Below are positions 6,794-63,874 of a stretch of DNA of 64,000 bases, piece by piece. The position numbers and the translations under genes are program-made. Position 1 is the stretch's first letter. The number at the start of each line of letters is the position of its first letter. Location: NCBI GenBank assembly GCA_900321105.1, contig OOHL01000003.1, forward strand, positions 143,516 to 207,515, in the 5' to 3' direction. Under the pieces are notes generated by a model. The model searched no databases and was not told where the DNA came from. It saw only the letters and a program-made list of their open reading frames with translations. The DNA comes from an uncultured Pseudomonadota bacterium. GTDB taxonomy: Bacteria > Pseudomonadota > Alphaproteobacteria > Rs-D84.

Positions 6794-7528
6794 TTATTGC
6801 GGACAAATGGTATCGTCGCACACATAATAAATTGTGTCGCCTTGTTTTATTTTCAAATATTGTTCGGTTGAATTATTTATGGTTGTCGGAATCGTTGTCA
6901 TATTTGCATAAAATATATCATTATCTATCTTTATATTTAATGAAGGTGTTGTTTGTTTTGTAGATTTTAAATATATATTGTTATTGTTGATATGTAATAT
7001 ATGCGGATAACAAACCGCGGAACCAGTTGGTGCAAAATATCCGTTTTCACATTGTTCAATACCCTGGGTCAATGTTTCATTAAAGGTATATGTTCCACCA
7101 ACACAATAACTGTTTTTGGGACATATCGTGCATTCATCCATATTCGCCGGTAAATAATAACCGGTGTTGCAAGTGTGAACGTTGGGTGTCATAACCGCAA
7201 CGAAATCATATGGTGCATTTGTGGAACAAAGGTTTGTCAGGTTATTATTGATATAACCACTTTGTTTAATTGCCCCCTGGAATATATCATTATTAAAATC
7301 ATATGTCCCGCCACTACATATATAACCATCCGGGCATGTTTTGCACCCCAAAGTATAAGCCGGTAAAAATTCCCCCGCCGGACACGTGTATTGATTTATT
7401 TCAAATACAGCGATTAATTCATGATTTATTATATTGTTACATCCGTTTATTATGTTTTCTGTGTGATATGCAAAAGCATAAGAGTAATATAAAATATAAT
7501 ATAAAAAAATAGTAAATATATTTTTCAT
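6794..7528 (-). CDS. Small secreted Cys-rich protein sharing the giant protein's C-terminal domain
   Basis: A 244-residue exported protein. The ATG at 7528 gives a typical signal peptide (KNIFTIFLYYILYYSYAFA) and lies 4 bases after the upstream gene's stop; a longer frame runs into that gene and is rejected. Two Cys modules follow (TCPAGEFLPA...CPDGYICSGGTY and TCNTGYYLPANMDECTICP), the same type as CDPGWFLPK and CDPGTYLPAN in the 5,087-residue protein at 48611-63874. The last 65 residues align with the end of that giant: LHI, then a (I/M)xxKS-like segment, a proline, FY/YY, M, and L(K/R)(I/V)...Y...D. I infer a common surface-protein family with a shared C-terminal targeting or anchoring domain. 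Function is unknown. Confidence 0.75.
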   Translation of the reverse strand: MKNIFTIFLYYILYYSYAFAYHTENIINGCNNIINHELIAVFEINQYTCPAGEFLPAYTLGCKTCPDGYICSGGTYDFNNDIFQGAIKQSGYINNNLTNLCSTNAPYDFVAVMTPNVHTCNTGYYLPANMDECTICPKNSYCVGGTYTFNETLTQGIEQCENGYFAPTGSAVCYPHILHINNNNIYLKSTKQTTPSLNIKIDNDIFYANMTTIPTTINNSTEQYLKIKQGDTIYYVCDDTICPQ

Positions 7529-7532
7529 TTTA

Positions 7533-8249
7533 TTACTCATCAATAATTGGACCCGCGATAATAGAACCATTTGGATAATAAAATTTCCCTTGAATTCGTT
7601 CATACATACATGCTTTCCCTGATGAATCTAAGGCGGGAACAAAATCACGAATTTTTATATCATTTTCATATATTTGGAATAAATATAATTTATATGTAGT
7701 AGAGTTTATATTTATTCCTATTGTGCTTTGTCCGTTAATATCAATATTTTTTTTACTTCCGGTTAAAACGGAGTCTGTTTCATAGTTTTTTATGTACATT
7801 GGGCCCATTTCAAGGTCATAAATGGTATCTGGACTAAAAGGTATAATTACGTCTCCGGATGCCCGGAAATATATTGCGTTTGAATATATAAAACTCGAAT
7901 ATGTTTGATTATTATTTATTGAGCCAAATATCTTGTCTGCGGTGCTAGTGCTAAATTTAACTCTAAACTTCATGTTATAGTTAGCGGTTAAGCCTGTGTT
8001 GAAATAAAGAGCATACGGATAAGATGGATCCTTTTGTAAATATTCAAGTTGTTTTGTTCTTCGTTTCCAACCCTGAAATGTATAACCATATTTATATGGG
8101 GTTTGGGGCAATATTATATCACCGCCAGATTCGCAAGTTGTTGTTGCATAGGCTGCCCCATTTTCTGCATACCAATGAATTGTTTCTGTTTCGGCGTGCA
8201 CAGTTGCGCACGTAAATATTGCGGTTAATGTTAATATTATTTTTCGCAT
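7533..8249 (-). CDS. Secreted protein with one InlB-type repeat and a LamG-like region
   Basis: A 238-residue protein with a signal peptide (1-19, cleavage after VHA). Residues about 25-65 resemble one InlB/Flg_new repeat: a Gly-Gly, a run ending ILPQTPYKYGYTFQGW, which is the signature found dozens of times in the giant protein. The remainder (about 70-238) looks like a concanavalin/LamG-type beta-sandwich; the closing DFVPALDSSGKACMYERI followed by FYYPNG is the usual end of such domains in phage and surface proteins. An AGGGGG ribosome site lies 9 bases before the ATG. It is the first gene of a two-gene unit with 6794-7528. A carbohydrate- or matrix-binding role is inference. Confidence 0.7.
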   Translation of the reverse strand: MRKIILTLTAIFTCATVHAETETIHWYAENGAAYATTTCESGGDIILPQTPYKYGYTFQGWKRRTKQLEYLQKDPSYPYALYFNTGLTANYNMKFRVKFSTSTADKIFGSINNNQTYSSFIYSNAIYFRASGDVIIPFSPDTIYDLEMGPMYIKNYETDSVLTGSKKNIDINGQSTIGININSTTYKLYLFQIYENDIKIRDFVPALDSSGKACMYERIQGKFYYPNGSIIAGPIIDE

Positions 8250-25311: not shown

Positions 25312-26946
25312 TTATTTTATAAGATTAGTTTCAAAGAAACATTCTTGATTATGATCATAACAGAGTTTGATTTTAAGTTTCCTTTTTACAACAGAAATAT
25401 TAAAGATACCTAAATCACATCCATACAGAACATTTTGGGATAAATGATTAAGCGCAGCCGAGACTGTACCGGATTGTGACATAGGAAGACTAACTTTTTC
25501 GATAGGGTTATCGAAGTAGTATATAGGAGCAGGAGTCTTTCCTTCATGTGCACAAACTTTTTTATTTTCAGGCAAAACACCAGCAGTGTGTAACACTGAA
25601 TTCAGACCGTCCGATTTAATTGCATCATCACAACGACTAAAACAAAAACCTTTTTCAAATTTCGGAGCAAGAATAGCGATATTTTGTTTATACCAGTCCC
25701 ACCAACCATCTATACTGTCATCGTAAGACAATTCCATATGAAAACTTATTTCTTTGCATGATTTTTTGTCATCGGATAAAAACCAATCTTTTTCACATCC
25801 TGTAATCAAACATTCGCCATTCGCATCAACTTCGCCTGTTGTTGCATGCGGATCCATTTGTTTTGCCGCTGCGTTGCATTCGTATCCAACTTCAACTTCA
25901 CATTCTGTTTTGTCTGTGGATGGTTTCCATCCGCTTTCGCATTTTTTAATTTTACAGTTCCCTTCTGAATCTATGGATGCGCTTACAACATGTTCAACGC
26001 CAGCCAGTGTACAAGGCGTCCCTTCGTTCAAAATACATGCATTGGCTTTTGAATTTGGAACCCAGCCTGCATCACATTGATTAACCTGGCAAACACTGTG
26101 ATCTGCATTATATTTGGCGCGAACCAGGTGATCAACCTTGCCCTTCAAAGTTTTCGTACAATCATTATAGGCGACACATTCTGGTGAACTGGCATGATTG
26201 CCGTCGGCACACCATTCAGATACGCGCTTGAAATCCGGAACCACATATGCGGTTGCATCTTTATATGGTTCATATCCTTCGGTTTTTACGGCAATGCGTT
26301 CACTGAAAGACAAATCTTCGAATGTTGTAGGAAACGCATTTGCGGACAGATGTTCACTGCCCGCACCATTTTGTCGTTGTAAACTTTGTAATTCGTCACT
26401 TCGCTCTTTTATATCCTGTTGCCATTTGGGTGTGACCTTTTTATACGGATTTTTTATTTCAATACTGTTATTGTTATTATTCAGATTTGGATTTGCCGTT
26501 GTCCCGGTTGGAAATGTCACCGCGCGATTCGGCAGGCTGTTCCCATATTGTGTAACATATTGTTCAAATACGTAATCTATGTATCCGGCACACGCTGACA
26601 CATAATTATTGCCTGGCAAATTAGATAATTGAACCATTACTGTTGGACGGATTTCAGCCAAAGTCGTATTTTTGCAATTGTCGCGTGCCATACACTGAAC
26701 AGATACCAATGATTGCACAACCTTGAAACAATCTTCGTCATTTAAGTCAGCACCCTGAACATAAACAGGTTGCGGCAAACGTTGATTATATGGCGAACTT
26801 GGTGTCCAAAAAGGATTTGTGGAATAATTTTGCACGTTTTGAATTTGACCATAATCAGAAAACAAAGATGAAGCAGCGGTCGCGCTAAGTGCATAAAAAC
26901 CGCCCATCACAGCCAATAACAAAGATTTTAAAAATCCCTTTTTCAT
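25312..26946 (-). CDS. Secreted protein with three short Cys repeats
   Basis: Start set at 26946, where AGGAAAGG lies just upstream and the product begins MKKGFLKSLLLAVMGGFYAL, a signal peptide; the longer frame overlaps the prepilin peptidase gene. The 544 residues include a low-complexity Asn stretch near 160 and then three related Cys units (about 325-440): CQVNQCDAGWVPN, CKIKKCESGWKPS and CLITGCEKDWFLS, each closed by a further cysteine. A C-terminal domain (about 440-544) with more cysteines follows. The unit resembles the C-x-GY/GW modules of the giant protein. It starts 17 bases after the prepilin peptidase and is probably co-transcribed with it. Function unknown. Confidence 0.7.
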   Translation of the reverse strand: MKKGFLKSLLLAVMGGFYALSATAASSLFSDYGQIQNVQNYSTNPFWTPSSPYNQRLPQPVYVQGADLNDEDCFKVVQSLVSVQCMARDNCKNTTLAEIRPTVMVQLSNLPGNNYVSACAGYIDYVFEQYVTQYGNSLPNRAVTFPTGTTANPNLNNNNNSIEIKNPYKKVTPKWQQDIKERSDELQSLQRQNGAGSEHLSANAFPTTFEDLSFSERIAVKTEGYEPYKDATAYVVPDFKRVSEWCADGNHASSPECVAYNDCTKTLKGKVDHLVRAKYNADHSVCQVNQCDAGWVPNSKANACILNEGTPCTLAGVEHVVSASIDSEGNCKIKKCESGWKPSTDKTECEVEVGYECNAAAKQMDPHATTGEVDANGECLITGCEKDWFLSDDKKSCKEISFHMELSYDDSIDGWWDWYKQNIAILAPKFEKGFCFSRCDDAIKSDGLNSVLHTAGVLPENKKVCAHEGKTPAPIYYFDNPIEKVSLPMSQSGTVSAALNHLSQNVLYGCDLGIFNISVVKRKLKIKLCYDHNQECFFETNLIK

Positions 26947-26963
26947 CCTTTCCTGTTCATTAA

Positions 26964-27425
26964 TTATAACAAAAATTGAATTATAATCAAAGACAAAAAT
27001 CCACCAATCAAAAAGAACGGTGCAAACGGAATATATTTGTCTTTCTTTTTCCAATTCCAAATGTATGCCAAAACGCACGATATTATCATCGCAATTGATA
27101 AACCCAGCGTTCCAAACCATATACCACCTGCCCCCAACAACTTTATGTCGCCCATGCCGATTGGTGGGTATTTTTGGTTTGGTTTTATCTTTTCAAATAT
27201 AAATCCAACAACCAATCCCAAACAGTATCCCATTGCACCACCGATAACAGAATCTGAAATTGTCACCGGCCATGGAAAAAATGTGGTGGTTAACAATCCC
27301 GCAAAAAGAAACGGGAATAAATACACGTCTGGGATAATTCTGCGCCGAAAATCAGCGGTTGCCATACGATATGCACAAAAAATTGCACCAATCAAAACAA
27401 ATGAAAAAAATATATAATAAATCAT
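26964..27425 (-). CDS. Type IV prepilin peptidase (A24 family, CpaA/TadV-like)
   Basis: Inner-membrane aspartic protease that removes the leader of type IV prepilin-like proteins. The 153-residue form has about six hydrophobic spans. Both catalytic aspartates are visible: one in ATADFRRRIIPD near residue 25 and one in the GMGDIK motif. It lacks the N-terminal methylase domain of PilD, so it is of the short CpaA/TadV type. The start at 27425 gives a normal N-terminus; 13 extra residues from 27464 are not needed. It heads a run of secreted-protein genes with no pilin visible in this window, and diverges from gcrA. Confidence 0.85.
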   Translation of the reverse strand: MIYYIFFSFVLIGAIFCAYRMATADFRRRIIPDVYLFPFLFAGLLTTTFFPWPVTISDSVIGGAMGYCLGLVVGFIFEKIKPNQKYPPIGMGDIKLLGAGGIWFGTLGLSIAMIISCVLAYIWNWKKKDKYIPFAPFFLIGGFLSLIIIQFLL

Positions 27426-27435
27426 GTTTTCTCTC

Positions 27436-27465
27436 TTGCCTTTCGATTCGTTTTTATGATACAAT
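27436..27465 (+). promoter_or_regulatory. gcrA promoter with a GANTC site
   Basis: TTGCCT (27436-27441), 18 bases, TACAAT (27460-27465). The spacer holds GATTC, a GANTC motif that CcrM methylates in alphaproteobacteria and that GcrA reads. Confidence 0.45.
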
Positions 27466-48610: not shown

Positions 48611-51600
48611 ATGGCGGTTTTCCGCAATTTTAAGCGAATTTTAATCAGCGCATTTTTTGCGTTATTTGCCTTGTTTGTTTCAACCGGTGCAAATGCAGCT
48701 ATCGACACTTGTCTTGGTCAGACTAACGAGGGGTTCTATTGTCGCCTTACTATTCGTCATAATTGTGTGCCGGGATGTTATTGTCCCGGGACTCCGTATA
48801 TGAATTCCAGTGCCACGAATGATGATGGTATTATATCATGTTGTGCGGCAACTAGTGGTGAATATTCCCCGGAAAACTTTGAAAATCAAAACTGCGGTGG
48901 CGGTGCTTTGAAGTGTCCTGCAAAATATCCAAATTCTGAATCTGGTGCGATAAAAACGGATTGTTATGTGGAATTAGAAGCCGGAAAATGTGTTGTTACA
49001 AAAGGCGAAGGACTTGTCACTTGCCCTGCTGGTTATGAATGTTTCAATACAAGTGGAAAAATATACTTTGACACGAGCAAAAACTATGTAAGTGGTCATT
49101 ATACAACAGGTGGTTGTTATAAATGTCAAAAAGGATATTACAGTCAACCCGGACAGACAGATTGTACGAAATGCCCCGCTGGAACAACAACCGCATCTAA
49201 CGCAACGGCATACGCGGGCAGTGTTGATGAAACGTGTCAAACATGTTCAAATGCCGATGGTGTTGAAGAATGGGATGACGAAGACGAGGATGGTTCTTCG
49301 CCATGCATAATTAAAACTTGCAAATATGGGTATAGTCTCTCGAATTCAGAGTGTGTAGGCATTGCTAAAACTGTCACTCTTAATAGTAATGGTGGTTCTG
49401 GTGGAACATCAAGTGTTTATGCTAGATATGGTTCTGCAATGCCTTCGATAAGCAGACCTTCACGTCCGGGATTTGTTTTTTCTGGATATTATGATGCTGT
49501 AAATGGTGGAACACAGTATTATACTGCATCTGGCGAATCCGCGCGTAATTGGGATAAGACAGAAAGTGGAATAATTTTGTATGCGCATTGGACGGAATGT
49601 GCGGCTGGATATTATTGTCCTGGTGATAATACATCAACCAAATGTGCAATTGGTTCATTCAGTGCAGCAGGAGCTATGGAGTGTCTGACGTGTTTAGATG
49701 GAAAAACAACATCTACAACAGGGGCAACAAGTTGTGACACTAATTGCCCAAATTATGAAGAAACATACTCGTACGGTTCTTATTATTATTATTGGAAAAT
49801 TCCGCAATGGCATAATAATGTTGTGACAGATCTTTGTGAATATACGCCGTGTGATACAGGGTATTATGCTAAAAAATATTATCTGGCAAGTATAATTGAT
49901 ACCAGTGCGTCTATGTCAGGAGAAGCACAGATCACAAACGATTACACCATACGCAGCGGTTCGCCAAGTGATTATGGTATATCGGACAGAAATTCTTTTG
50001 CTTTAAAATATAACGACAACCTTGGTGTGATTACCGGACACGCCAGATGCAGTCAACAAGGAGGCACAGGAATAACAAGTAGATATACCGATCCTGATAG
50101 TGTATCCAAGACTGATAATTTGACCGAAGATTTTAGGAATGGACAATATTGTTGGTGTCAGATAGATGGTTATATTCCGTATGGAAAGTCACGACAATAC
50201 GTACCTGCTCCTTGGGTTTTTTTGGCAGATTATGGCAGTGGATCTGCTTGTTCGAATAGTTGTCTTTCACAATGTGTAGGTTATTTGCGGGCTACTTCGG
50301 GTGAGATGTTTCTGCTTAAACGTGAATCCATAATTCGGTCGGCTGTTCGGTCACCTATATATGGTGTTTGTGAAATAGAAACATACTCTATACATTTTGA
50401 TAAAAACGCAGATGATGCTGTTGCTGGTACAACATATGTGAGTGGTATCACATATAATTCCACGTTGCCTTCAGATATAACTGTGCCAACACGTGATGGG
50501 TATGTTTTTGTTGGTTATTATGATACCAAAAATTCAACAGGTGGTGTAAAGTATTATGATAATACCGGAAATCCTTTACGTAATTGGGACAAAAGTTATA
50601 CTGGTTGGTTGTATGCACGGTGGGAACCACTTCAATACACAGTGTCGTTTAATGCAAATGGTGGAACCGGTGGTCAATCCCAAGATGTAATCGCGACATC
50701 TGGTTCTCCTATGCCGGCAATATCAACAACCGCCCCAACCCGTCAATATTATTTATTCGGTGGTTGGTATGATACGTCTGATTCAACAGGTGGAACACAA
50801 TACTATACTGCATCTGGTGAATCTGCGCGTAATTTTGACAAGGCATCAGATACAACATTATATGCGCGCTGGATTCAAAGGATATACACAATTACGTATA
50901 AAGACGGTTCAACAACGATGACAGGTTTGACACCAACATCGTATGATATTGAAGGTGATGCAATTACGTTGCCAACGCCGACAAAAACCGGATATACCTT
51001 TTATGGATGGTGTGATGATGAAAATTTAACACAAAATTGTGCAACAGAACGTACAATTCCATCCGGATCAACGGGTGATAAAACATTTTATGCAAAATTT
51101 AAAGCTAATACTTATTTGATAGTTTTAAACGGCAGTGTAAATGGTTGTGATACTTATTGTGGTTCTACAAGTATTTCTGAAGTATATAATACTAAGTGGC
51201 TTAGTTTTAACGGTCAACAAACTATAACGACTTCACCGCTTAATCCAAATAAAAATAATGCTACATTTACTGGTTGGTATGATTCTGTTACTGGTGGAAA
51301 CTTCAAATTTGGTGCGACATTACCCGAACCAAATATGTTTGTTGAAGATACAACTTTATATGCACATTTTGAATGTAATACAGATTATGTTTTAAACAAT
51401 GAAACAGGTAGGTGTATTTTAGAAAACCAAAACATTATATACAATATGAATGGTGGAACGAATTATAATGGTGCGCCAACAACATATAAATACGGTATTG
51501 GTGCTATAATAGATGGCACACCAACCAAGGATAATTATACATTTGCCGGATGGTGCACGGATTCTGGATTAACAAATTGTGCCGCAACACAAACAATATC

Positions 51601-54600
51601 AACCACAGATTATGGCGATAAAACATTCTGGGCAAAATGGATTGGAAACGCATACACGGTCACGCTGGACAAAAATGCGGATGATGCGGTTGCCGGCACA
51701 ACGTCCGTGAGGGCGACTTATGGTTCTGCGATGCCAACGCCAATAACATTGCCAACTCGCGACAGGTACGTTTTTATTGGTTATTATGATACAGCAGAAT
51801 CAACAGGTGGAACACAATATTATGATGCCTCTGGTTTGTCTGTGCGTGTTTGGAATAAAGCGGCAGATACAACATTATATGCACGCTGGGAGCATAGTAC
51901 TTATACAATAACATTGTCGCGAAATGGGGTTACCCGAAACATAAAAGAAGTGTATAGCGAAAAATGGACGGATTCAGATGGTAACACTATAACTTTAGCA
52001 CCTTCTGATAGTGAATATTCTTATTCTCAAAAAGTATTTTTAGGATATTTTGACAATAATGGATCGTCCGGTGGAACGAAGTATATAGATGAATACTTAA
52101 CACTGCCTGCGAATACAACGTTTACTTCTGATACGACACTTTATGCCCGGTGGCAGGATTGTACCTGTTCCAATGGAATACATTCTGAGTGTATTCTAGG
52201 ATATTCCGCCCATGAAGAGAATGTATGTAGATATAGCTATGCTTGTCGGACTGGTTATAGTAATAATGGTTTAAAATCTGGCAATCTTGTTGGTCCTTAT
52301 GGGGTTGCAAATGTCAGTGCGTCAGATTGTTTGACTCCGGATACATATACAATTACATTGGATGATACAACGAATGGTGGTTCGGGTGGCTCGGGAACCG
52401 TTAAAGAGGTGTATGGCGAAAAATGGACGGATTCAGATGGTAACACCATAACAAGTGTTGCGACGCCTACAAAGACGAATAGTGTATTTACAGGGTATTT
52501 TGGTTCATCATCTGGTGGTACAAAGTATATAAGTACAGATATGTTGTTGCCTTCAACTACGGCTTTTTCTGCATCTGCGACCGTATATGCACAATTTGGA
52601 CAGTGTACATGTTATTTTAGATATAATAAAGCTAATGTTTCTAGCTGTGCGGTAGATGGTGTAAACAATCAAAATCAATGTGTGTATTCGTATACATGTT
52701 TTGATAATTATAATACGGACGGTAATAACGATAATAAAACTGGTACATTTATAGGTGACAATGGCATATATGATAACACAGTGCCAAACTGTCTGCCAAA
52801 TACATACATAATAACATTGGATGATGCGACAAATGGTGGTTCTGGGGGTGTGGGAACAATTAAATTAGTATATGCCACCGGATATACAGATATGGACGGA
52901 AACACAATAACATCTGTCACCGCGCCAAATAAAACAGGTGGAATCTTCTATGGATATTACAATGGGGGCAGTAAACAAATTGATGCGGATGGGACAATTA
53001 CTGTGGGTAATACAGGTTTTACATCCGATACAACATTGTATGCAAGATTTGGTAATTGTGCTTGTACGGCGGGAACCGGTGTTGAATCTTGTGAATCTAT
53101 TAAATCATCGGATCCAACGCGTTGCAATTATCGATATACATGTAAAAATGCATATACCACGGACGGCACCAATACATCCGATACATTTATGGGGGGTGTA
53201 AACGTCAGAACTTCTACATCGCCAGATTGTATACCAAACGAATACACAATTACATTGGACAACGCAAATGCCACAACGAATGGAACAAGTACACTTTATA
53301 CTAAATATAATACGGGTCTTTATCTGGATTCCGATCGAACAAAATCAATGTCATATAATTCTAATGCGATTACAAAGCCATCACGGACAGGAGCGACCGT
53401 TTCTTATAACGGAAATGGTGGAACAGTTGGAAGTTTGAATAGTAATCATACGAGTGCACGTGATTACTCATTTCTTGGGTATTACAGTGAACCCGGGGAT
53501 ATACAATATGTATATGGTTCCGATGGCGTAACCACCATAACCCCGCCGGGAACACAATATATAACAGATGGCGGTTATAGAACGTCAGATGGTTATTATG
53601 CTGCGAAATCCTATACATCAAATGATAATGTTTGGCATGCACGTTGGAAACCAGGCAGAGTTATTTTGCCAACTTCTACCTATATTACCCGCACAGGTTA
53701 TACTTTTACAGGTTGGTATGATGCCCCAAATGGTGGTGTATGTATAGGACGCGGCTTATCCGGTACCGTATGTGGTAATACCACTCAGTATTATTACCCT
53801 TCTTCAAATACGACATTGTATGCACACTGGTTGCCATACACATATAAAATTACATTGGATAATTCAAATGCCACAACAAATGGAACGGCGGAGTTATGGT
53901 ATCAATATGAACAAACGGAACCCTGCACGTATTACAGCGCCGATTCGTCCGTGGAAGAAAACAGAATCACTGCAAATTGTTTGCCAACCATAACAATACC
54001 ACAAAGAACCGGATATAATTTTGCTGGATATACTTATGGTGGTACACAATATATAGATGGCTCTGGTAGATATACTTATGGTGGTACACAATATATAGAT
54101 GGCTCTGGTAATTTTGTTAATAATTTGTATAAAACAACAGGCAATAAAACATTGTATGCCAATTGGTCGGTGATTAATTATCCAATCACATATTATATAG
54201 ATGGCGTCGAAGATGACAGTTTTGCCGGCTATACAACCTATACAATAGCAACTTTTACAACATTGCCAAGTCCAACAAAAACAGGATACACTTTCAGTGG
54301 TTGGCATACGGAACCAGATTACAGTGATGATGTTGTGACACAAATACCGGCGGGTTCTACCGGTCCAAAAACATTTTATGCCGAATGGACACCAATTGAT
54401 TATACAATAAAATATTTTGAAAGGTATAGCACCGAAATATCTGGTCTGACACCAACATCATATAATGTTGAAACCGAAACTTTCGATTTACCAACCTATT
54501 CTAAGCCGGGCTTTGAATTCGGCGGATGGTATGATGATAGCTCTTTAAGTGGTGATCCAATAACGCAAATCGAAAAGGGTTCGCGCACTGGTAATTTAAA

Positions 54601-57600
54601 TCTTTATGTGAAATGGTTGCAATTAACATGTGAACCTGGATATTATTTGCGGGCAAATGATAATTATTGTTCAGAGTGTGACAGCGAAGGATATTGTCCG
54701 GGTATTGGCCCAGTTGCACCAAGCAATGAAGATCAAGGTTTGAAACTTTGTTCCGCCCTTACCGATAATTCAAAAGAAGGCGCATTTGGCTTAGAAGCTG
54801 AAAATCAGCCAGGTTTTGTCGGCAAGGAAGTTGCGGACAGCCCTGAAACATGTATGGCAAATTTGCTTTACGGAACAGAAACCGGCATGTCTTTCTTTAG
54901 TGGTGGACAAGAACCTATGCCGAATTATAACCCGAATTTACCGGTTAATACAAACAACACCTTTTTGTACCAAACGTGTCTTTATAACACGACAACACAC
55001 GCATATACCGATTGTTTACCGTTGCTTAAAGCTAGCGGCGGCGTTTATTGTAAAAACGGTTATATCGTTCCACAAAGTTATATTGATAACGTCCAAACAA
55101 TACAACAAAATGTATCAAATATTGGTGACGATCCGGAACAATTTGCGGCATTTGTCAGACAGATTGTTGGCGAACCATTTGTTTGTTCACCTGCGGGATA
55201 TAATTGGTACACAAACATGTATGATGCAATTGTAGACAACGCTGAATCTGATCCTTATGGATATATGAGTTTTTTTGCTAACAATGTTGGTATGATTTTT
55301 GAGGGTGGAGAAATTCGACACATAACAGAAAATGCAACGTTATCTGATGTATATAAACAATGCCCTGTTTCGTTCCCGCATACCGCGACGAATACATCAT
55401 GGAAAAAGGCACAATGTTTTGCAAACGTTCATTTTGACACCAATGGTGGAAACGCAGTTGACGATATAGAAATGCATCATCAGGGTTCTGATTCCGGTTA
55501 TAAAATGTGCAACATGTTGATAAATGTTGTTGACTTAACGGCTTCACCAGAATCTGCCGCGATAAAACGCCAAGATGGCACAACATGTACCGCCGTTGAT
55601 TTGTCCGCTGATAGCTCTAATACTATAGAAGATTGTAATGACCCTGTCTTTACAGATATGTCGGCTGGGGATTGGAAACTTGGTTTTTCATATGGAACGG
55701 TTTCTGGAAAAACTTTGTGCAGTGCGACGACAGCTGCGAATCAGTTTGATATTGGTGCGCCAAATACGGAATCTGGCGGTAATTGTTGGTGTAAAGTGTC
55801 CGCGTTCACAGACACAAATAATGCAACAACAGACATCACAGATGGACAGTGGGTGTTTATGGATGCTTTTTCAACTGATACAGCCGTTGCAGATTGTCAA
55901 TCACGTTGTGCAGAAATTTGTCCAAGCCAAATAGTATATGGCAGCGCAAATGTGGTTTCAAAATTGTATTCAAATATTTGTTTGTCAGACAGTGCAACAA
56001 CACCAATACGTGACGGTTATACATTTGCCGGATGGTATACAGAAACAAATGATAAAGTTGATAAAGATACCATATTATCTGGCGATCAAACATTATATGC
56101 AAAATGGAATATGGCATGCGATGCATGTTCTGCTGGTTCTGGGGTTCAAAATTGTGTTATGAATGCAACAGAAAATTCGTGTTCGTATTCTGCAACATGT
56201 GCGGATGGATATTCAAGAAATGGTGGTTCAGATACGAATACAGAGGCCATTTGTACCGGTTCAACATGTTCATGTAATCCACGCACATATATAATTACAT
56301 ATAAAGATGGTTCGACAACACTGACCGGTTTAACACCAACAACATATACATATGGAATCGGTGCAACAATTGATGGCACGCCAAGCAAGGACGGTTATAC
56401 ATTTGCCGGATGGTGCACGGATTCTGAATTAACCAATTGTGATACAACACAAACAATATCAACGACTGATATTGGTGATAAAACATATTGGGCAAAGTGG
56501 GACGCAAACACATATACAATTACATATAAAGATGGTTCGACGATATTGACCGGTTTAACACCAACATCATATACATACGGTGTCGGTGCAACGATTGATG
56601 GCACGCTGACCAAGGATAATTATACATTTATCGGATGGTGCACAGATGAAACATTGCAAGATTGTGCCGCAACACAAACAATATCTGCAACCGATATTGG
56701 CGATAAAACATATTGGGCAAAATATGATGCAGACACATATACAATTACATATAAAGATGGTTCAACAACACTGACCGGTTTAACACCAACAACATATGCA
56801 TACGGAACCGGTGCAACAATTGATGGCATACCGACCAAGCCTGGATATGTATTTGCCGGATGGTGCACAGATTCTGAATTAACAGATTGTGCCGCAACAC
56901 AAACAATATCTGCAACAGATGTTGGCGATAAAGAATATTGGGTACAATGGGATATTGAATGTCCTGACGGATTCAAAGACGGAACCGGGGTCAAGGATCT
57001 GAATATGTGTTACAGAAACGGGACGACGACTTGTACCGAATACTTGTCATTTACTAATGCCCAGGTTTCTTATGCTGTATCAAATGCAAGTTTGCCATGT
57101 AAACAATATTATGGATCTGATACATGTGTGCCTGATAATGTTGGTGCGTGTGATGTGACAGATTATACTTGTGGTGATAATTATGATGATACACCATGGA
57201 ATATTGATTCTTCTGTGATGCCGAATGCGTTTGCTATCATAAGAACACAAAATGCGACATGTTACAGAATAGATGCGGATAATAATGTCACGGAAGATTG
57301 TGCTGATTCTGCATTTAATGATATAGAACCTGGCGATTGGAAATGGGAATATGCAGATAAAACAATTTATGGTGTCGGCAGATGCAGTGATACTGTCGGA
57401 ACAAATTTTGTGGTTGGAAATCCTGATTTTACAAATACCGGGGAATATTGTTGGTGCCGTATAGAAAAGATAAATAACGAAACAGCGGTTTCTGCATGGG
57501 TAAATGTCCAGGTTCCTCAATGTGATGCTAATTGTGTCAATATATGTGGGTTCGCGCCTTTCTTCTCGTCAGAATATGTTGATATAATAACCAATACCCT

Positions 57601-60600
57601 AACAAAACAATGTGTCGCAAAGACATACAATATTGCATACAACATGGGTGGTGGAACAAATTATAATGGTGCCCCAACAACATATACATACGGCACCGGT
57701 GCAACAATCGATGGCACACCAACCAAGGATAATTATACATTTGTCGGATGGTGCACAGATTCTGAATTAACGAATTGTGCGGTAACCCAAACAATATCAA
57801 CAACAGACAGTGGCGATAAAACATTCTGGGCAAAATGGATTGGAAACGCATACACGGTCACGCTGGACAAAAATGCGGATGATGCAACGGCTGGAACGAC
57901 ATCTGTGACGGCGATATATGATGCCGATATGCCAGAAATAACATTACCAACAAGAACCGGATATACTTTTGATGGATTCTATGATGCACAAACCGGCGGC
58001 ACACAATATTATGGAAAAACACTTTGTGGTACTGGTAATAATGTTAATATATGCGGTGCTTGTTATACATCCGAACATGTGTGGGATAAAACACAAAACA
58101 CAACATTATATGCACATTGGACACCAAGGACGACTTCTAAATCCCTTGACCACAATGGTGGCACAAATACGATAAGCACATTATATGCTAAATACGACAC
58201 TGGTATTTCCACAAGTTCAGATTATACGAACATAATGACGACCAGTGCCAATCCAATGCCGATACCAACACGCAATGGATATGTATTTGATGGGTATTAT
58301 CCTGCTTCTATAACGCACGTTGGTTCAAGAGGTGACGACGACGGGACAGATCTCGTATACAACTTTACTGATACGCAAATAATAGACGCAAATGGATATA
58401 TAACATCGGATGGTATATCGTATTTTAACGATGAAATGACAGTTTGTTCTGCGGTCGCTAGCTTGCACGTCATTGCTGCCAAATGGACACCGGCCACATA
58501 TACTATTACATATAACCTTAACGGCGGAACAAATTACAGTGGCGCTCCAACAACATATATGTACGGCACGGGTGCAACAATTGATGGCACCCCAACCAAG
58601 GACGGCTATACATTTGTCGGGTGGTGCACAGACGAAACATTGCAAGATTGTGCCGCAACCCAAACAATATCCACGACAGATATTGGTGATAAAACATATT
58701 GGGCAAAATGGGAAGCAAACACATACACCATTACATATAAAGATGGTTCAACAACACTGACCGGTTTAACACCAACGACATACACATACGGAATCGGTGC
58801 AACAATTGATGGCACGCCAACCAAGGACGGTTATACATTTGCCGGATGGTGCACAGATTCTGAATTAACAAATTGTGACATAACACAAACAATATCAACG
58901 ACTGATATTGGCGATAAAGAATACTGGGCAAAATGGAATGTAATAACATATGACATAACATATCATTCTAATGGTGGCACTGAATACACAACTGGACATT
59001 ATACGATTGAAAGCGATGATATTACCCTGCCCGAACCGATAAAAGAAGGATATGGTTTTGCTGGTTGGTATGATAATTCTGAATTAACAGGAACTGCCAT
59101 AACAACAATACCGCATGGTTCAACTGGTAATCGCGAATATTGGGCTAAATGGGGTATAATGACATATACGATTACGTATGAAAATTTATATGATGGTGTG
59201 CTTCCAGATAATCCGCCAACAGAATTTACGGTTGAAAGTGATGATATCAGTATACCTGAACCAACACGTATTGGTTATACATTTATTGGATGGTGTGATG
59301 ATGAACTTTTAACACAAAATTGTGCAATGGGACGCACCGTTCCACATGGTTCGACTGGAAATAAAACTTTTTATGCCAATTGGCAAGAAAATACTTATTT
59401 GGTGCGCTTTGTTCCAAATTCACCGTATGTTGAAAATGCTTCTGCTATGACAAACTATTTGGTACAAGAATATGGCACAGAATATATGGAATGTTTATAC
59501 GACCATGAATGCACTTTGCCTAAAAATTTATATACCAACCCAGGTTTTGAATTTATGGGATGGAAAAAAGCTGATGATAATCATGTTTATGCAGATGAAT
59601 CGTTTATAATCAAACAAACAGAAGATGTCGTGCTTTTGGCACAATGGGACAATGCAACGATACATTGTGATCCTGGTTGGTTTTTGCCAAAACAAACATA
59701 TGATGATTGTGTAATATGTCCGCAAAAGTATTTCTGTTCAGGTGGTGATTTTGAGTTCAGTTTTTCTTTGCATCAAGGTATAGAATATTGTGGAACATAT
59801 ATGAATGAATCACTTGTCACTACAGATGGCGAAGGCGCAACTAATTTGTATGATTGTTATGTCTTGTGTGATTCAACCAAGGGTAATTATGTAATAGATC
59901 CTGAATACAATAAAATTACATATAGTCAAGATGCAGATTCTGTATGTAAATACAAGGCAGAAGTTGTTTATGGTGACGAAAATTGTGACACTTTAACATA
60001 TTACAGTACAAATACGACCATAGATTTATGTGTTCCGGATGCTAAACCTGGAAAAACATTTACAGGATGGATTGATAACAAAGGTAATCAATACAATGTG
60101 TCAGATAATCCAAACCTTACAAATATAACAATTGCTGATTCTGTGCCGACAAACGGTGTTGTCACAATGACACCAAATTGGATTGTTGAGCAATATATGA
60201 TAACCTATCAATGTGGCAATGAAAAAACAATACTTGCAGAAAACCTGGAATATGGTGACAATGTTGATTTGTTGAATTATGAACATTGTAACAATACAGG
60301 CTTTACATTGCAAAATTGGGAATGTAAAGATTCCAATAATCATAACGTTTTTGTTGATAATTACACAATGCCGGCCAGCGATGTTACGTGTGTTGCAAAT
60401 GCTGTAGCAAATTCATATGTTGTTAATTTTGATGTTAATGGTGGGGTTGGTGGTCAAAGTGAATCATTAACATTTGAATATGGTGATGTTTTAGAACCTT
60501 TGGGAACAACATCTGCCCCAACCCGTGAAGGTTATGATTTTGTTGGGTGGTTTGATGCAAATGGAATATTATATTATGATCCATATGGTGTTAATGTTTT

Positions 60601-63600
60601 ACAAAATTGGATTTTCACAAAAGATACTACTTTGTATGCAAACTGGTTACCAACCGAGTATACGATATCTTATACAATACCATATGGTATAACTGCATCC
60701 AATGTATCGTCATATACTATTGAAACCCCTACATTTACGTTAAATAATCCATCAAAATCGGGATACGAATTTATCGCATGGTGTGAAAATGAAGAGTTGA
60801 CTGAAAATTGTGAAACAACAAAAACAATAGAACAAGGAAGTTCTGGTGACAAAGAATTCTTTGCCGACATGAAAGAAATAATATATACCGTCACATACAA
60901 GTACACTGATACCAACGGTGAAGAACATGATATTTCATATTTGTTCGATGACAATTATACAAAGCGTACCTTAAAGCAAAGTATTACATATCCAACAAAT
61001 GTAAATATACCGGGGTATAAATTTATCAAATGGTATTCTAATTCTGCATTGTCTGGTTCGCCTGTCACGGGTGTTGCATCTTATGTAAAGTCTAATAAAG
61101 AAGTTTGGGCAAAAACAGAACCTTTGACATGTGATGTAAATCAATATATGACCGAATCCGGTGTTTGCAATGCTTGCCCTGACCATTCAACCAGCAATGG
61201 CGGCACAATAACAGAATGTGATTGTGATAATGGTTATGTTAAATCAGACGATGTGTGTGTTGCAAAAATATATAATATTGAATATGAATATAATGGTGCC
61301 TTGGCGGTTTCAAACCCGACACAATATACGGTTGAAACAGAACCAATAACACTGAACGAACCAAGTAAAGATAATTATATATTTACAGGATGGTATTTGT
61401 ATTCAGATTTATCTGGAAATCAGATAACAACAATATCTGGTGATTTAAGTGGTGATATCACATTATACGCAGGATGGGTATATGCGCCATGTCCTGTTAA
61501 TCACTACTTACAAGATGATTCTTGTTTGCCTTGTCCGCTACATTCAAGCAGCAATGGTGCATATGCAACATCTTGTGTTTGTGATAAATATTATGAATCT
61601 GATGAAAACAATGGTTGTGTTCTGCAAAATTACACGATTGATTATGTTTTGGATGGTGGCGTTTTGCAATCTGGTCAAACTAACCCAGGTCAATACAACA
61701 TAGATACAACAACTACACAATTATATAACCCAATAAAAGATGGCTATACTTTCGTAGAATGGCGACTTAACGGTATAAATGGTGATGTGCTTACAGATAT
61801 TTCTGGGGCTTTGGCAGATTATGGCGATATAACTTTGTATGCAAAATGGAATAAAGATCCAGATTCGTCAACCCTGACCTTCAAATGCAGTGATGATGAA
61901 AATATTGATATTAAAGATTATGTTGGTACAAGCGTATCTTTGCCAACAACATCAGATTGCAATATAAGTGTCGGTAAAATCACAAAATGGAAATGTGGAA
62001 CACAAACATATACTGTTCCAGGGACCATAAACATACCGGCCACAAATACAACGTGTACGCCAACCATATCTTATTCGGATGTCGTATATAATCTTGAATA
62101 CAAGGGTTATGATACAGACGGCAATGAAATAGACGTGTCTGATATCAATCCAAAAACCTATGTGTCGAAAAATGGTGTAACATTCCCAACCAGAACAACA
62201 GTCTCGGTTCCTGGTTATAATTTCAATGGCTGGTATTTGTCATATGAAAATTCCAGATTCTCTTCATCTATCACTGGGCTTGCGCGATATGCCACAGGAA
62301 ACAAAACTTTATATGGTAAATTTACCCCGGCAACATATAACTGTGATCCAGGCACATATTTGCCTGCTAATTCAACAGAATGTATACCTTGCGATGAAGC
62401 CAATGCGTATTGTCCTGGCGGCGATTTAATTTATTCTGATACCGATTCTGGCAAAAAGTATTGTGTTGATCCATATCCTTATTCTGATATAACCAATGAA
62501 GGCGTAGCATCACAAAATGATTGTTATAGATATTGTGAAGAACGCGACTATTATACAGTGATTGGATATAAATATTTTGATGGTTCTAATAATTGTGAAT
62601 ACACACCAATTACTTATTATATACATTATGATACAAACGGTGGAAACGCAATCATTCCGCAAGCATTTACTGTTGAAACAGGAACTATTATAAATTTACC
62701 AAGCCCTTATCGTTCAGATAAGTTGTTTGACGGATGGTTTGATGAAAATGGTAGGTATGTTGATTCGATTGATACATCATTTGGTCGTGATATTACGTTG
62801 TATGCGCAATGGACGGAAAAACCATGTGATGGAAATCAATATAAGTTAGATGGCGTGTGTGTTGCGTGTCCTGCACATTCGCATGGTGCAGCTGACGGTA
62901 TATCAGAATGTGAATGCGATACAGGTTATGAAAAAATAGCGGCATCTTGTGAGCCAATAGAATATAATATTACTTATATTGGTTTAGAAGGTGCATCAAA
63001 CATATTTAATCCTTTGAAATATACTGTTGAAAATGCTGGCGAAGCACTTGTTGCGCCATCAAATCGGATTGGTTATGAATTTGATGGCTGGACAAAAGAC
63101 GGTGTGGTATTTAATGCGATTCCATATGGGGTAACGGGTGATATAACATTGACTGCGAATTGGCATACGAAAACCGTCCATTGTGATCCTGGTGAATATT
63201 TGCCTGCAAACAGCGAGACATGCACACCTTGTACCGAAGAAAACGTTTATTGTCAGGGTGGCGATATAGAATATTCTGACAGTACGAACGGCAAAAAAAT
63301 GTGCCCGTCTGCTTACCCTTATTCTGTTGCCGGTGCAACCACCGTCAATCAATGTTATAAAACATGTGTTGATCCGAATGTTGATGGCGCAATCTATTCT
63401 GACGGTACAGACACATGCGATTATACTTATCCAATAGAATATGTATTAAATGGTGGTGAGTTTGTTGCTGATTATCCACAATCTTATGAACACGGAATTG
63501 GGGCACTGGTATTAGCAATTCCTCATAAATCTGGATATGTCTTTGGTGGATGGTATGATAATGCAGAAATGAGTGGTCTTGCAGTCAGAGATATAAGCAC

Positions 63601-63874
63601 GAATATATACGGCAAAATAACGTTGTATGCCAAATGGGAATTTGGTTGTGAAAGTGGTAAATGGTTGCATATTGGCTCTGATGACAAAATATGTATGTAT
63701 GAAAGCAAGCCTGAATTACCTGCCATGGTCATAGAAACCAAAAATGGTACATATTATATGATGTTGTCTGAAAATTCAGATACACCGATTCACGAGAATT
63801 CAAACAAAAAATTGCGTGTCGAAATAGATGGTCGCGTGTACAACGCACACGATGCGTCTGTTATTGTGGAATAA
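48611..63874 (+). CDS. Giant secreted InlB-repeat and Cys-rich module protein
   Basis: A single uninterrupted frame of 5,087 codons. A signal peptide (about 1-30, ending GANAA) is followed by a GCC2/GCC3-like Cys-rich region (to about 245). Then come about 39 beta-repeats of the InlB/Flg_new type, each roughly 70-90 residues and ending in a W-rich closing strand such as LYARW, YWAKW or TFYAEW. They are interleaved with Cys modules: CxPGxYLPA...C type, three CWC modules, and four C-x-C...Y(S/R)YTC modules. The last 65 residues match the end of the 6794-7528 protein. There is no LPXTG, autotransporter barrel or late membrane span, so export and anchoring are unclear. InlB repeats act in adhesion in other bacteria; an adhesin role here is inferred. 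AAGGAAGG lies 12 bases before the ATG. Confidence 0.9.
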   Translation: MAVFRNFKRILISAFFALFALFVSTGANAAIDTCLGQTNEGFYCRLTIRHNCVPGCYCPGTPYMNSSATNDDGIISCCAATSGEYSPENFENQNCGGGALKCPAKYPNSESGAIKTDCYVELEAGKCVVTKGEGLVTCPAGYECFNTSGKIYFDTSKNYVSGHYTTGGCYKCQKGYYSQPGQTDCTKCPAGTTTASNATAYAGSVDETCQTCSNADGVEEWDDEDEDGSSPCIIKTCKYGYSLSNSECVGIAKTVTLNSNGGSGGTSSVYARYGSAMPSISRPSRPGFVFSGYYDAVNGGTQYYTASGESARNWDKTESGIILYAHWTECAAGYYCPGDNTSTKCAIGSFSAAGAMECLTCLDGKTTSTTGATSCDTNCPNYEETYSYGSYYYYWKIPQWHNNVVTDLCEYTPCDTGYYAKKYYLASIIDTSASMSGEAQITNDYTIRSGSPSDYGISDRNSFALKYNDNLGVITGHARCSQQGGTGITSRYTDPDSVSKTDNLTEDFRNGQYCWCQIDGYIPYGKSRQYVPAPWVFLADYGSGSACSNSCLSQCVGYLRATSGEMFLLKRESIIRSAVRSPIYGVCEIETYSIHFDKNADDAVAGTTYVSGITYNSTLPSDITVPTRDGYVFVGYYDTKNSTGGVKYYDNTGNPLRNWDKSYTGWLYARWEPLQYTVSFNANGGTGGQSQDVIATSGSPMPAISTTAPTRQYYLFGGWYDTSDSTGGTQYYTASGESARNFDKASDTTLYARWIQRIYTITYKDGSTTMTGLTPTSYDIEGDAITLPTPTKTGYTFYGWCDDENLTQNCATERTIPSGSTGDKTFYAKFKANTYLIVLNGSVNGCDTYCGSTSISEVYNTKWLSFNGQQTITTSPLNPNKNNATFTGWYDSVTGGNFKFGATLPEPNMFVEDTTLYAHFECNTDYVLNNETGRCILENQNIIYNMNGGTNYNGAPTTYKYGIGAIIDGTPTKDNYTFAGWCTDSGLTNCAATQTISTTDYGDKTFWAKWIGNAYTVTLDKNADDAVAGTTSVRATYGSAMPTPITLPTRDRYVFIGYYDTAESTGGTQYYDASGLSVRVWNKAADTTLYARWEHSTYTITLSRNGVTRNIKEVYSEKWTDSDGNTITLAPSDSEYSYSQKVFLGYFDNNGSSGGTKYIDEYLTLPANTTFTSDTTLYARWQDCTCSNGIHSECILGYSAHEENVCRYSYACRTGYSNNGLKSGNLVGPYGVANVSASDCLTPDTYTITLDDTTNGGSGGSGTVKEVYGEKWTDSDGNTITSVATPTKTNSVFTGYFGSSSGGTKYISTDMLLPSTTAFSASATVYAQFGQCTCYFRYNKANVSSCAVDGVNNQNQCVYSYTCFDNYNTDGNNDNKTGTFIGDNGIYDNTVPNCLPNTYIITLDDATNGGSGGVGTIKLVYATGYTDMDGNTITSVTAPNKTGGIFYGYYNGGSKQIDADGTITVGNTGFTSDTTLYARFGNCACTAGTGVESCESIKSSDPTRCNYRYTCKNAYTTDGTNTSDTFMGGVNVRTSTSPDCIPNEYTITLDNANATTNGTSTLYTKYNTGLYLDSDRTKSMSYNSNAITKPSRTGATVSYNGNGGTVGSLNSNHTSARDYSFLGYYSEPGDIQYVYGSDGVTTITPPGTQYITDGGYRTSDGYYAAKSYTSNDNVWHARWKPGRVILPTSTYITRTGYTFTGWYDAPNGGVCIGRGLSGTVCGNTTQYYYPSSNTTLYAHWLPYTYKITLDNSNATTNGTAELWYQYEQTEPCTYYSADSSVEENRITANCLPTITIPQRTGYNFAGYTYGGTQYIDGSGRYTYGGTQYIDGSGNFVNNLYKTTGNKTLYANWSVINYPITYYIDGVEDDSFAGYTTYTIATFTTLPSPTKTGYTFSGWHTEPDYSDDVVTQIPAGSTGPKTFYAEWTPIDYTIKYFERYSTEISGLTPTSYNVETETFDLPTYSKPGFEFGGWYDDSSLSGDPITQIEKGSRTGNLNLYVKWLQLTCEPGYYLRANDNYCSECDSEGYCPGIGPVAPSNEDQGLKLCSALTDNSKEGAFGLEAENQPGFVGKEVADSPETCMANLLYGTETGMSFFSGGQEPMPNYNPNLPVNTNNTFLYQTCLYNTTTHAYTDCLPLLKASGGVYCKNGYIVPQSYIDNVQTIQQNVSNIGDDPEQFAAFVRQIVGEPFVCSPAGYNWYTNMYDAIVDNAESDPYGYMSFFANNVGMIFEGGEIRHITENATLSDVYKQCPVSFPHTATNTSWKKAQCFANVHFDTNGGNAVDDIEMHHQGSDSGYKMCNMLINVVDLTASPESAAIKRQDGTTCTAVDLSADSSNTIEDCNDPVFTDMSAGDWKLGFSYGTVSGKTLCSATTAANQFDIGAPNTESGGNCWCKVSAFTDTNNATTDITDGQWVFMDAFSTDTAVADCQSRCAEICPSQIVYGSANVVSKLYSNICLSDSATTPIRDGYTFAGWYTETNDKVDKDTILSGDQTLYAKWNMACDACSAGSGVQNCVMNATENSCSYSATCADGYSRNGGSDTNTEAICTGSTCSCNPRTYIITYKDGSTTLTGLTPTTYTYGIGATIDGTPSKDGYTFAGWCTDSELTNCDTTQTISTTDIGDKTYWAKWDANTYTITYKDGSTILTGLTPTSYTYGVGATIDGTLTKDNYTFIGWCTDETLQDCAATQTISATDIGDKTYWAKYDADTYTITYKDGSTTLTGLTPTTYAYGTGATIDGIPTKPGYVFAGWCTDSELTDCAATQTISATDVGDKEYWVQWDIECPDGFKDGTGVKDLNMCYRNGTTTCTEYLSFTNAQVSYAVSNASLPCKQYYGSDTCVPDNVGACDVTDYTCGDNYDDTPWNIDSSVMPNAFAIIRTQNATCYRIDADNNVTEDCADSAFNDIEPGDWKWEYADKTIYGVGRCSDTVGTNFVVGNPDFTNTGEYCWCRIEKINNETAVSAWVNVQVPQCDANCVNICGFAPFFSSEYVDIITNTLTKQCVAKTYNIAYNMGGGTNYNGAPTTYTYGTGATIDGTPTKDNYTFVGWCTDSELTNCAVTQTISTTDSGDKTFWAKWIGNAYTVTLDKNADDATAGTTSVTAIYDADMPEITLPTRTGYTFDGFYDAQTGGTQYYGKTLCGTGNNVNICGACYTSEHVWDKTQNTTLYAHWTPRTTSKSLDHNGGTNTISTLYAKYDTGISTSSDYTNIMTTSANPMPIPTRNGYVFDGYYPASITHVGSRGDDDGTDLVYNFTDTQIIDANGYITSDGISYFNDEMTVCSAVASLHVIAAKWTPATYTITYNLNGGTNYSGAPTTYMYGTGATIDGTPTKDGYTFVGWCTDETLQDCAATQTISTTDIGDKTYWAKWEANTYTITYKDGSTTLTGLTPTTYTYGIGATIDGTPTKDGYTFAGWCTDSELTNCDITQTISTTDIGDKEYWAKWNVITYDITYHSNGGTEYTTGHYTIESDDITLPEPIKEGYGFAGWYDNSELTGTAITTIPHGSTGNREYWAKWGIMTYTITYENLYDGVLPDNPPTEFTVESDDISIPEPTRIGYTFIGWCDDELLTQNCAMGRTVPHGSTGNKTFYANWQENTYLVRFVPNSPYVENASAMTNYLVQEYGTEYMECLYDHECTLPKNLYTNPGFEFMGWKKADDNHVYADESFIIKQTEDVVLLAQWDNATIHCDPGWFLPKQTYDDCVICPQKYFCSGGDFEFSFSLHQGIEYCGTYMNESLVTTDGEGATNLYDCYVLCDSTKGNYVIDPEYNKITYSQDADSVCKYKAEVVYGDENCDTLTYYSTNTTIDLCVPDAKPGKTFTGWIDNKGNQYNVSDNPNLTNITIADSVPTNGVVTMTPNWIVEQYMITYQCGNEKTILAENLEYGDNVDLLNYEHCNNTGFTLQNWECKDSNNHNVFVDNYTMPASDVTCVANAVANSYVVNFDVNGGVGGQSESLTFEYGDVLEPLGTTSAPTREGYDFVGWFDANGILYYDPYGVNVLQNWIFTKDTTLYANWLPTEYTISYTIPYGITASNVSSYTIETPTFTLNNPSKSGYEFIAWCENEELTENCETTKTIEQGSSGDKEFFADMKEIIYTVTYKYTDTNGEEHDISYLFDDNYTKRTLKQSITYPTNVNIPGYKFIKWYSNSALSGSPVTGVASYVKSNKEVWAKTEPLTCDVNQYMTESGVCNACPDHSTSNGGTITECDCDNGYVKSDDVCVAKIYNIEYEYNGALAVSNPTQYTVETEPITLNEPSKDNYIFTGWYLYSDLSGNQITTISGDLSGDITLYAGWVYAPCPVNHYLQDDSCLPCPLHSSSNGAYATSCVCDKYYESDENNGCVLQNYTIDYVLDGGVLQSGQTNPGQYNIDTTTTQLYNPIKDGYTFVEWRLNGINGDVLTDISGALADYGDITLYAKWNKDPDSSTLTFKCSDDENIDIKDYVGTSVSLPTTSDCNISVGKITKWKCGTQTYTVPGTINIPATNTTCTPTISYSDVVYNLEYKGYDTDGNEIDVSDINPKTYVSKNGVTFPTRTTVSVPGYNFNGWYLSYENSRFSSSITGLARYATGNKTLYGKFTPATYNCDPGTYLPANSTECIPCDEANAYCPGGDLIYSDTDSGKKYCVDPYPYSDITNEGVASQNDCYRYCEERDYYTVIGYKYFDGSNNCEYTPITYYIHYDTNGGNAIIPQAFTVETGTIINLPSPYRSDKLFDGWFDENGRYVDSIDTSFGRDITLYAQWTEKPCDGNQYKLDGVCVACPAHSHGAADGISECECDTGYEKIAASCEPIEYNITYIGLEGASNIFNPLKYTVENAGEALVAPSNRIGYEFDGWTKDGVVFNAIPYGVTGDITLTANWHTKTVHCDPGEYLPANSETCTPCTEENVYCQGGDIEYSDSTNGKKMCPSAYPYSVAGATTVNQCYKTCVDPNVDGAIYSDGTDTCDYTYPIEYVLNGGEFVADYPQSYEHGIGALVLAIPHKSGYVFGGWYDNAEMSGLAVRDISTNIYGKITLYAKWEFGCESGKWLHIGSDDKICMYESKPELPAMVIETKNGTYYMMLSENSDTPIHENSNKKLRVEIDGRVYNAHDASVIVE
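49357..49600 (+). repeat. InlB-type repeat 1 of the giant protein
   Basis: One unit from KTVTLNSNGGSGG to LYAHWTE, isolated from the others by a Cys-rich stretch. Confidence 0.75.
49870..50300 (+). repeat. CWC module, copy 1
   Basis: Holds GHARCS, QYCWCQI, W-V and a closing C...C...C; the same order recurs at 55546-55945 and 57225-57590. Confidence 0.6.
51613..51687 (+). repeat. 75-bp direct repeat, copy A
   Basis: Base-for-base identical to 57811-57885, 6.2 kb away in the same gene. Confidence 0.95.
54027..54110 (+). repeat. 42-bp perfect tandem duplication
   Basis: Two identical 42-base units (54027-54068 and 54069-54110) encode YTYGGTQYIDGSG twice, in frame. Confidence 0.97.
55546..55945 (+). 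repeat. CWC module, copy 2
   Basis: Contains AGDWK, GKTLCS, GNCWCKV, WVF and closing cysteines in the same order as the other copies. Confidence 0.7.
56281..56959 (+). repeat. InlB-type repeats 17-19, near-identical
   Basis: Three successive units open with YT/YIITYKDGST and close in DIGDK or DVGDK plus YW; the DNA is nearly the same, and a fourth close copy lies at about 58719-58940. Confidence 0.8.
57225..57590 (+). repeat. CWC module, copy 3
   Basis: Contains PGDWK, GVGRCS, EYCWCRI, WVN and C..NC..ICG, matching copies 1 and 2. Confidence 0.7.
57624..59655 (+). repeat. InlB-type repeats 20-27
   Basis: Eight successive beta-repeats, two of them (near 58497 and 58719) close copies of the 56281-56959 set. 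Confidence 0.75.
57811..57885 (+). repeat. 75-bp direct repeat, copy B
   Basis: Identical to 51613-51687. Confidence 0.95.
59957..63648 (+). repeat. InlB-type repeats 28-39 and Cys modules
   Basis: About 12 more diverged beta-repeats, with Cys modules of the CDPGxYLPAN type near 62340 and 63180 and short CPxHSxxNG modules near 61170, 61525 and 62870. Confidence 0.7.
63660..63874 (+). other. Shared C-terminal domain of the giant protein
   Basis: The last roughly 65-70 residues align with the end of the 6794-7528 protein (LHI start, proline, YY, M, then L(R/K)(V/I)...Y...D). Confidence 0.6.

Follow-up and report, generated by a model that had tools for sequence, protein, structure and literature searches.

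C-terminal sorting domains and the present locus

LPXTG and PEP-CTERM signals are C-terminal tags common to many exported proteins of a genome. The tail domain described here, which is about 65 residues long, is similar in that it forms a C-terminal end common to many exported proteins of its genome. However, it has neither a hydrophobic helix nor a basic end and is predicted as a six-stranded beta domain, so that an LPXTG/sortase or PEP-CTERM tag was rejected. An autotransporter (type V) was also rejected, none being found among the Pfam matches of 40 full-length tail proteins and the tail having only about 65 residues, as was an RTX/type I substrate, given the signal-peptide-like starts of 87 of 95 tail proteins and the lack of any RTX family in the same 40.

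The type IX CTD of Bacteroidota is a conserved folded C-terminal domain on signal-peptide proteins (PMC10202324, PMC4560394). The tail is similar in being a conserved folded C-terminus that, within one lineage, is found on many signal-peptide proteins differing in size and architecture; the combination of C-terminal position (116/128) and signal-peptide-like start (87/95, by a crude rule) is the type IX-like feature of these proteins. Unlike the type IX CTD, the tail does not match the CTD profile families (53 tails searched against Pfam and NCBIfam, E 0.1), and its host is alphaproteobacterial. SprA (PF14349) matched 0 of 21 genomes, but also 0 of 14 control genomes, so this zero cannot count as absence. 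The tail resembles known C-terminal sorting domains in layout, while failing the type IX CTD profile, LPXTG/PEP-CTERM, autotransporter and RTX tests. No description of the tail domain was found in the literature searched, most of which was covered at less than full-text depth.

A 2025 study assigned the host genus, Ca. Enterousia, to the order Rs-D84 and proposed that its members, whose genomes are reduced, live as symbionts or parasites (PMC12306168). In the same study, Ca. Enterousia and its relatives are common in the gut, their genomes measure less than about 1 Mb, a dependence on partner cells is proposed for them, and their surface proteins are described only as hypothetical (PMC12306168).

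The tail gene and its partner

The window, i.e., the whole stretch of 64,000 nucleotides analysed, contains two small genes for which a sequence-only reading had given the correct coordinates. Both lie on the minus strand, with the InlB-repeat gene (8249-7533) first and the tail gene (7528-6794) second, 4 bases apart.

Translation, own-genome paralogs and predicted structure show the product of the tail gene (6794-7528, minus strand) to be a 244-aa protein composed of a signal-peptide-like start, two Cys-rich modules and the C-terminal tail domain. The N-terminus (MKNIFTIFLYYILYYSYAFA; 7469-7528, minus strand) is signal-peptide-like by sequence and by a predicted helix at residues 4-18. Cys-rich module 1 (CPAGEFLPA...CKTCPDGYICSGG; about residues 48-90; 7259-7387, minus strand), defined by sequence and BLASTP, gives a sub-threshold match to DUF7631 in a Pfam search. 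Module 2 (CNTGYYLPANMDECTICPKNSYCVGG; about residues 119-162; 7043-7174, minus strand), defined by sequence, BLASTP and VIA-align, has a TNFR/Eph-receptor-like Cys-rich layout, for which the VIA-align matches are weak but consistent (Z up to 3.6). The two CxxGxxLPA...C modules that had been noticed in the sequence are indeed present and match modules of the giant protein described below (best BLASTP E 8e-9). The modules before the tail resemble TNFR/Ephrin-receptor-like repeats (PF07699, PF23091), a distant likeness at low Z (up to 3.6) that concerns the passenger only. The tail domain itself, delimited by alignment, profile and predicted structure, spans residues 173-244 (6797-7012, minus strand) and is predicted to have six strands in three hairpins.

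The partner gene (7533-8249, minus strand) encodes a 238-aa protein which, from its translation, Pfam matches and family alignment, lacks the tail domain and consists of a signal-peptide-like start, one InlB (Flg_new) repeat and a conserved C-terminal block. The InlB/Listeria-Bacteroides repeat, which the sequence-only reading had recognised, occupies residues 27-63 (8061-8171, minus strand) and scores 28.7 bits against PF09479, above the curated cut-off of 27. Such repeats occur in the partner gene and in the giant, whereas the tail itself is not this repeat. The block at about residues 69-234 (7548-8045, minus strand), defined by family alignment, reads EYLESTGTQ...FIPVLD.NGTPCMYD...FIAGP in relatives. 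It had been called LamG-like, but a Pfam profile search by sequence matched no LamG model to it; judged by its alignment, it is a conserved region of as yet unassigned fold.

The 244-aa protein has own-genome paralogs that also stand in two-gene units, with identities of 69% (L002/L103) and 44% (L003). The pair of an InlB-repeat gene and a tail gene was found at six loci, i.e., in the window, at two more places in the own genome, and in L048, L060 and L164, and in some of these pairs stop and start overlap by one base. L198, from the same genome, encodes a single chain in which the partner's conserved block (E 1e-13) is combined with a Cys module and a tail that is shortened, and the block is present in 11 of 132 tail proteins. 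The recurrent pairing and these single-chain fusions support a joint function of the pair, as read from gene order and domain content. A second type of partner, which ends in a half InlB repeat (GKTFKGWKF), precedes small tail genes in L059, L064, L066 and L069.

Homology and predicted fold of the two tails

The giant protein (48611-63874, plus strand) has 5,087 residues; it begins with a signal-peptide-like stretch and contains many InlB repeats and Cys-rich modules. Its C-terminal tail domain, residues 5016-5087 (63656-63871, plus strand), is of a giant-type subfamily and was identified by the independent profile described below and by predicted structure. The tails of the two proteins are strongly diverged, with about 21% identity, and BLASTP of the two tails alone gave a non-significant E of 8.5; aligned by MAFFT with two own-genome paralogs, they match over their whole length. 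So that the test would not be circular, the own genome and the giant-like members were excluded from a profile of 97 tails, all taken from other genomes. This profile found the 244-aa tail at iE 1.6e-24 and giant residues 5016-5084 at iE 3e-7, against a best value of 0.09 among 1,000 shuffled tails, so that both tails belong to the family by a profile made without the tested sequences and their close kin. On this profile evidence, the tails of the 244-aa and 5,087-aa proteins are homologous. The idea of a shared C-terminal domain, first raised from the sequence, is borne out by the profile and by the same predicted strands at both ends.

The consensus of the tail reads DCGRxLHxGxxxxYLRSxKKTTPSLNVxIxxxTFYGNMxT...LxI...TxYSVYDDS. 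AlphaFold models the giant's end with a mean pLDDT of 88 and strands at positions 10-14, 18-23, 31-36, 39-46, 61-65 and 68-73, and the tail of the 244-aa protein mostly at pLDDT 87-95 with strands at residues 176-180, 183-188, 196-201, 204-211, 225-229 and 232-237. Both models thus have six strands in three hairpins with closely matched strand lengths and spacing, the same predicted layout at both ends that had been put forward as a check on the relationship, although the two models have most alignment rows in common and are not fully independent. A shortened tail, ending after the second hairpin (...IYYGDMFPA), was seen in L085, L086, L088, L089, L090, L093 and L096; these proteins have about 190-270 residues and occur in several copies per genome.

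No PDB entry matched the tail by sequence, and by fold the best Foldseek E was 1.7 and the highest VIA Z was 3.0, with only part of the domain covered, which does not imply a novel fold. Neither Pfam nor NCBIfam has a model for the tail at a meaningful level (53 tails, up to E 0.1), in agreement with the earlier impression that no named domain has this pattern. A search of PHROGs with the tail returned weak, scattered matches only, and scans of IMG/VR and INPHARED phages found no sequence relatives. Foldseek of the giant's tail against BFVD gave three phage proteins of similar predicted fold, one of 165, one of 257 and one of 713 aa, with probability 0.98-1.00, TM 0.50-0.61 and E 0.014-0.084. 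The likeness of these BFVD proteins (entries A0A8S5NPH6, A0A8S5SD73 and A0A8S5UTN0) to the giant's tail lies in predicted fold, at only 19-28% identity and E 0.01-0.08.

Position, signal-peptide-like start and passengers

Among 128 distinct proteins with a known end, the tail ends at most 25 residues from the stop in 116 (median 1), whereas random placement would give 10.2 of 128 and never gave more than 25 in 20,000 simulations. In several ORFs the stop comes right at the motif, with DDSM as the last residues in 27 of the 128. A signal-peptide-like start was found in 87 of 95 complete tail proteins vs. 172 of 507 control ORFs, a contrast that is indicative only, the rule being crude and the controls including non-genes. 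Complete tail proteins range from 152 to 5,087 aa, and their passengers are varied: among 40 full-length proteins, Ephrin_rec_like was matched in nine and Flg_new in six, most others having no Pfam domain, and a loose pattern places Cys-rich modules in 103 of 132 tail proteins.

Exceptions to the terminal position are of two kinds. In nine proteins (L058, L062, L076, L077, L139, L143, L146, L147 and L163), a constant additional Cys-rich module of about 130 aa comes after the tail. In three proteins of 244-350 aa, the tail lies near the N-terminus (L101:781-1833; L143:8444-9397; L119:15940-16674 (minus strand)). The giant, too, seems to contain internal stretches that resemble this additional module of about 130 residues.

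In several same-genome pairs, the tail is more similar than the passenger, with identities of 98% vs. 55% in L089/L093, 93% vs. 76% in L049/L052 and 82% vs. 35% in L094/L100. In the own genome, L199 (948-2117) and L200 (1645-2595) have 46 of 48 tail residues identical beside strongly diverged passengers. Their DNA matches only over about the last 206 bases (86%); within the tail, five codon changes are synonymous and two non-synonymous, and the codons just upstream are strongly diverged. The near-identical tails beside diverged passengers point to the tail either having been exchanged between genes as a unit or being strongly constrained as one.

Taxonomic distribution

With the profile of 53 tails, the domain was detected in 141 of 156 genus genomes (Ca. 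Enterousia; order Rs-D84 in GTDB), at 1-13 copies each, and eight further genera of the family contributed another 14 genomes with the domain. Among good-quality genomes of the genus, 97 of 103 carry a tail and about 6 of 103 have no detectable copy; the own genome (874 kb) has eight copies. The sequence-only reading had expected a profile to recur at the extreme C-terminus of signal-peptide proteins, and many further matches of this kind were found in the genus.

An earlier-stage profile of four tails matched 31 own-genus genomes among 59 searched. An even sample of 385 genomes of the class gave own-genus matches only, plus one weak fragment; this fragment, in G491, is the sole class-wide match outside the family, covers 42 residues with a stop, and was judged a chance match or a decayed fragment. 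A scan of 84,980 species genomes, built on 11 closer tails, gave 92 loci. Of these, 80 were kept; all are MAG-type records, most bear the title Alphaproteobacteria, and Ca. Enterousia is among them. Across these searches, the tail domain is restricted taxonomically to Ca. Enterousia and its family.

Giants without a tail and candidate export parts

Several giant surface proteins of the genus do not carry the tail; one ends in ...GYTMW and others in a half InlB repeat. Since these giants end differently, the tail is not a universal requirement for giant surface proteins or for export in the genus. L192 and L194 hold proteins that end in the half InlB repeat (GKTFKGWKF). A second kind of giant, of 2,200-3,100 aa and also without a tail, is found in L188, L189, L190, L193, L195 and L196 and ends in a conserved Cys-rich stretch, ...RKKCVRTCKEGYTMW; in L189, L190 and L196, a FAD-type ORF of about 385 aa adjoins it.

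The own genome encodes a secretin beside a TcpQ-type gene (L201:5236-7818) and a PilB/GspE-type ATPase, and the window contains a prepilin peptidase (26964-27464). These belong to a type IV pilus or a type II-like machine, which could export tail proteins. However, secretin and TolC-type proteins, both present in the genus, were rejected as specific partners, neither being tied to the tail, because secretin is also present in families without it. The window also encodes a secreted-looking, Cys-containing protein of 602 aa with a CPL1-like match (25312-27120, minus strand).

Function of the tail domain

The best reading of these data, to which we give about an even chance, is that the tail is a shared surface sorting or anchoring domain. 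Each tail protein would leave the cytoplasm via its N-terminal signal peptide, presumably by Sec, and the folded tail would then be bound by one common envelope component, which would place or hold the protein at the cell surface. The tail would thereby mark cargo as the type IX CTD does, with a different fold and by no known machinery. Within a pair, the Cys-rich protein with the tail would serve as the subunit that is attached, and through it the tail-less, co-translated InlB-repeat partner would be displayed; these roles are suggested because the gene order is conserved and single-chain fusions occur. The surface location of tail proteins is itself putative. Counted against sorting or anchoring are the giants that lack a tail, the three N-terminal tails, the roughly 6 of 103 genomes without a copy, the fact that no dedicated receptor or processing enzyme was found, and the phage proteins of similar predicted fold, which suit binding as well as sorting.

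These same phage proteins lead to a somewhat unlikely alternative, in which the tail is a binding head, i.e., a small adhesion domain at the distal end of a stalk formed by the remainder of the protein, where it would touch a partner cell, mucus or glycan. The three similar predicted folds from Foldseek and the ability of the tail to sit near the N-terminus in three proteins are consistent with such a head, and the relatives, thought to be obligate symbionts or parasites (PMC12306168), would need adhesins. However, the phage matches are weak in E-value and those proteins are uncharacterised, and one conserved core on very different passengers across the family fits a fixed cellular receptor better.

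We consider it unlikely that the tail serves as a structural cap or as an oligomerisation module, closing a flexible Cys-rich/InlB chain and protecting its C-terminus with no role in targeting. A compact predicted beta domain at the very end, found after repeat arrays, would suit this purpose, but the tail is also seen on short proteins (under 250 aa) that have few repeats, it is missing from some repeat giants, and the nine proteins with the module of about 130 aa behind the tail are incompatible with a terminal cap. That the tail has no function of its own, and was merely inherited by paralogs of one expanding secreted family, is improbable: the Cys-rich modules that many tail proteins have in common (103/132, loose pattern) and the existence of close paralogs would fit, but tails are conserved beyond their passengers in several pairs, and the L199/L200 DNA match does not extend beyond about the last 206 bases.

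Under the sorting or anchoring reading, a wider proposal can be made, which we put forward as tentative. The tail may mark the cargo of a surface-delivery or attachment route, so far undescribed, in an order of gut Alphaproteobacteria with reduced genomes. As a folded C-terminal signal it would work in the manner of the type IX CTD, without being related to it and outside Bacteroidota, and the route would present both giant and small proteins to partner cells. Should the tail prove to be a sorting signal, it would be one so far absent from Pfam and NCBIfam. The tail provides a sequence handle for listing surface proteins of Ca. Enterousia and its relatives in any genome, and a search for the receptor or export machine can use it as a concrete target.
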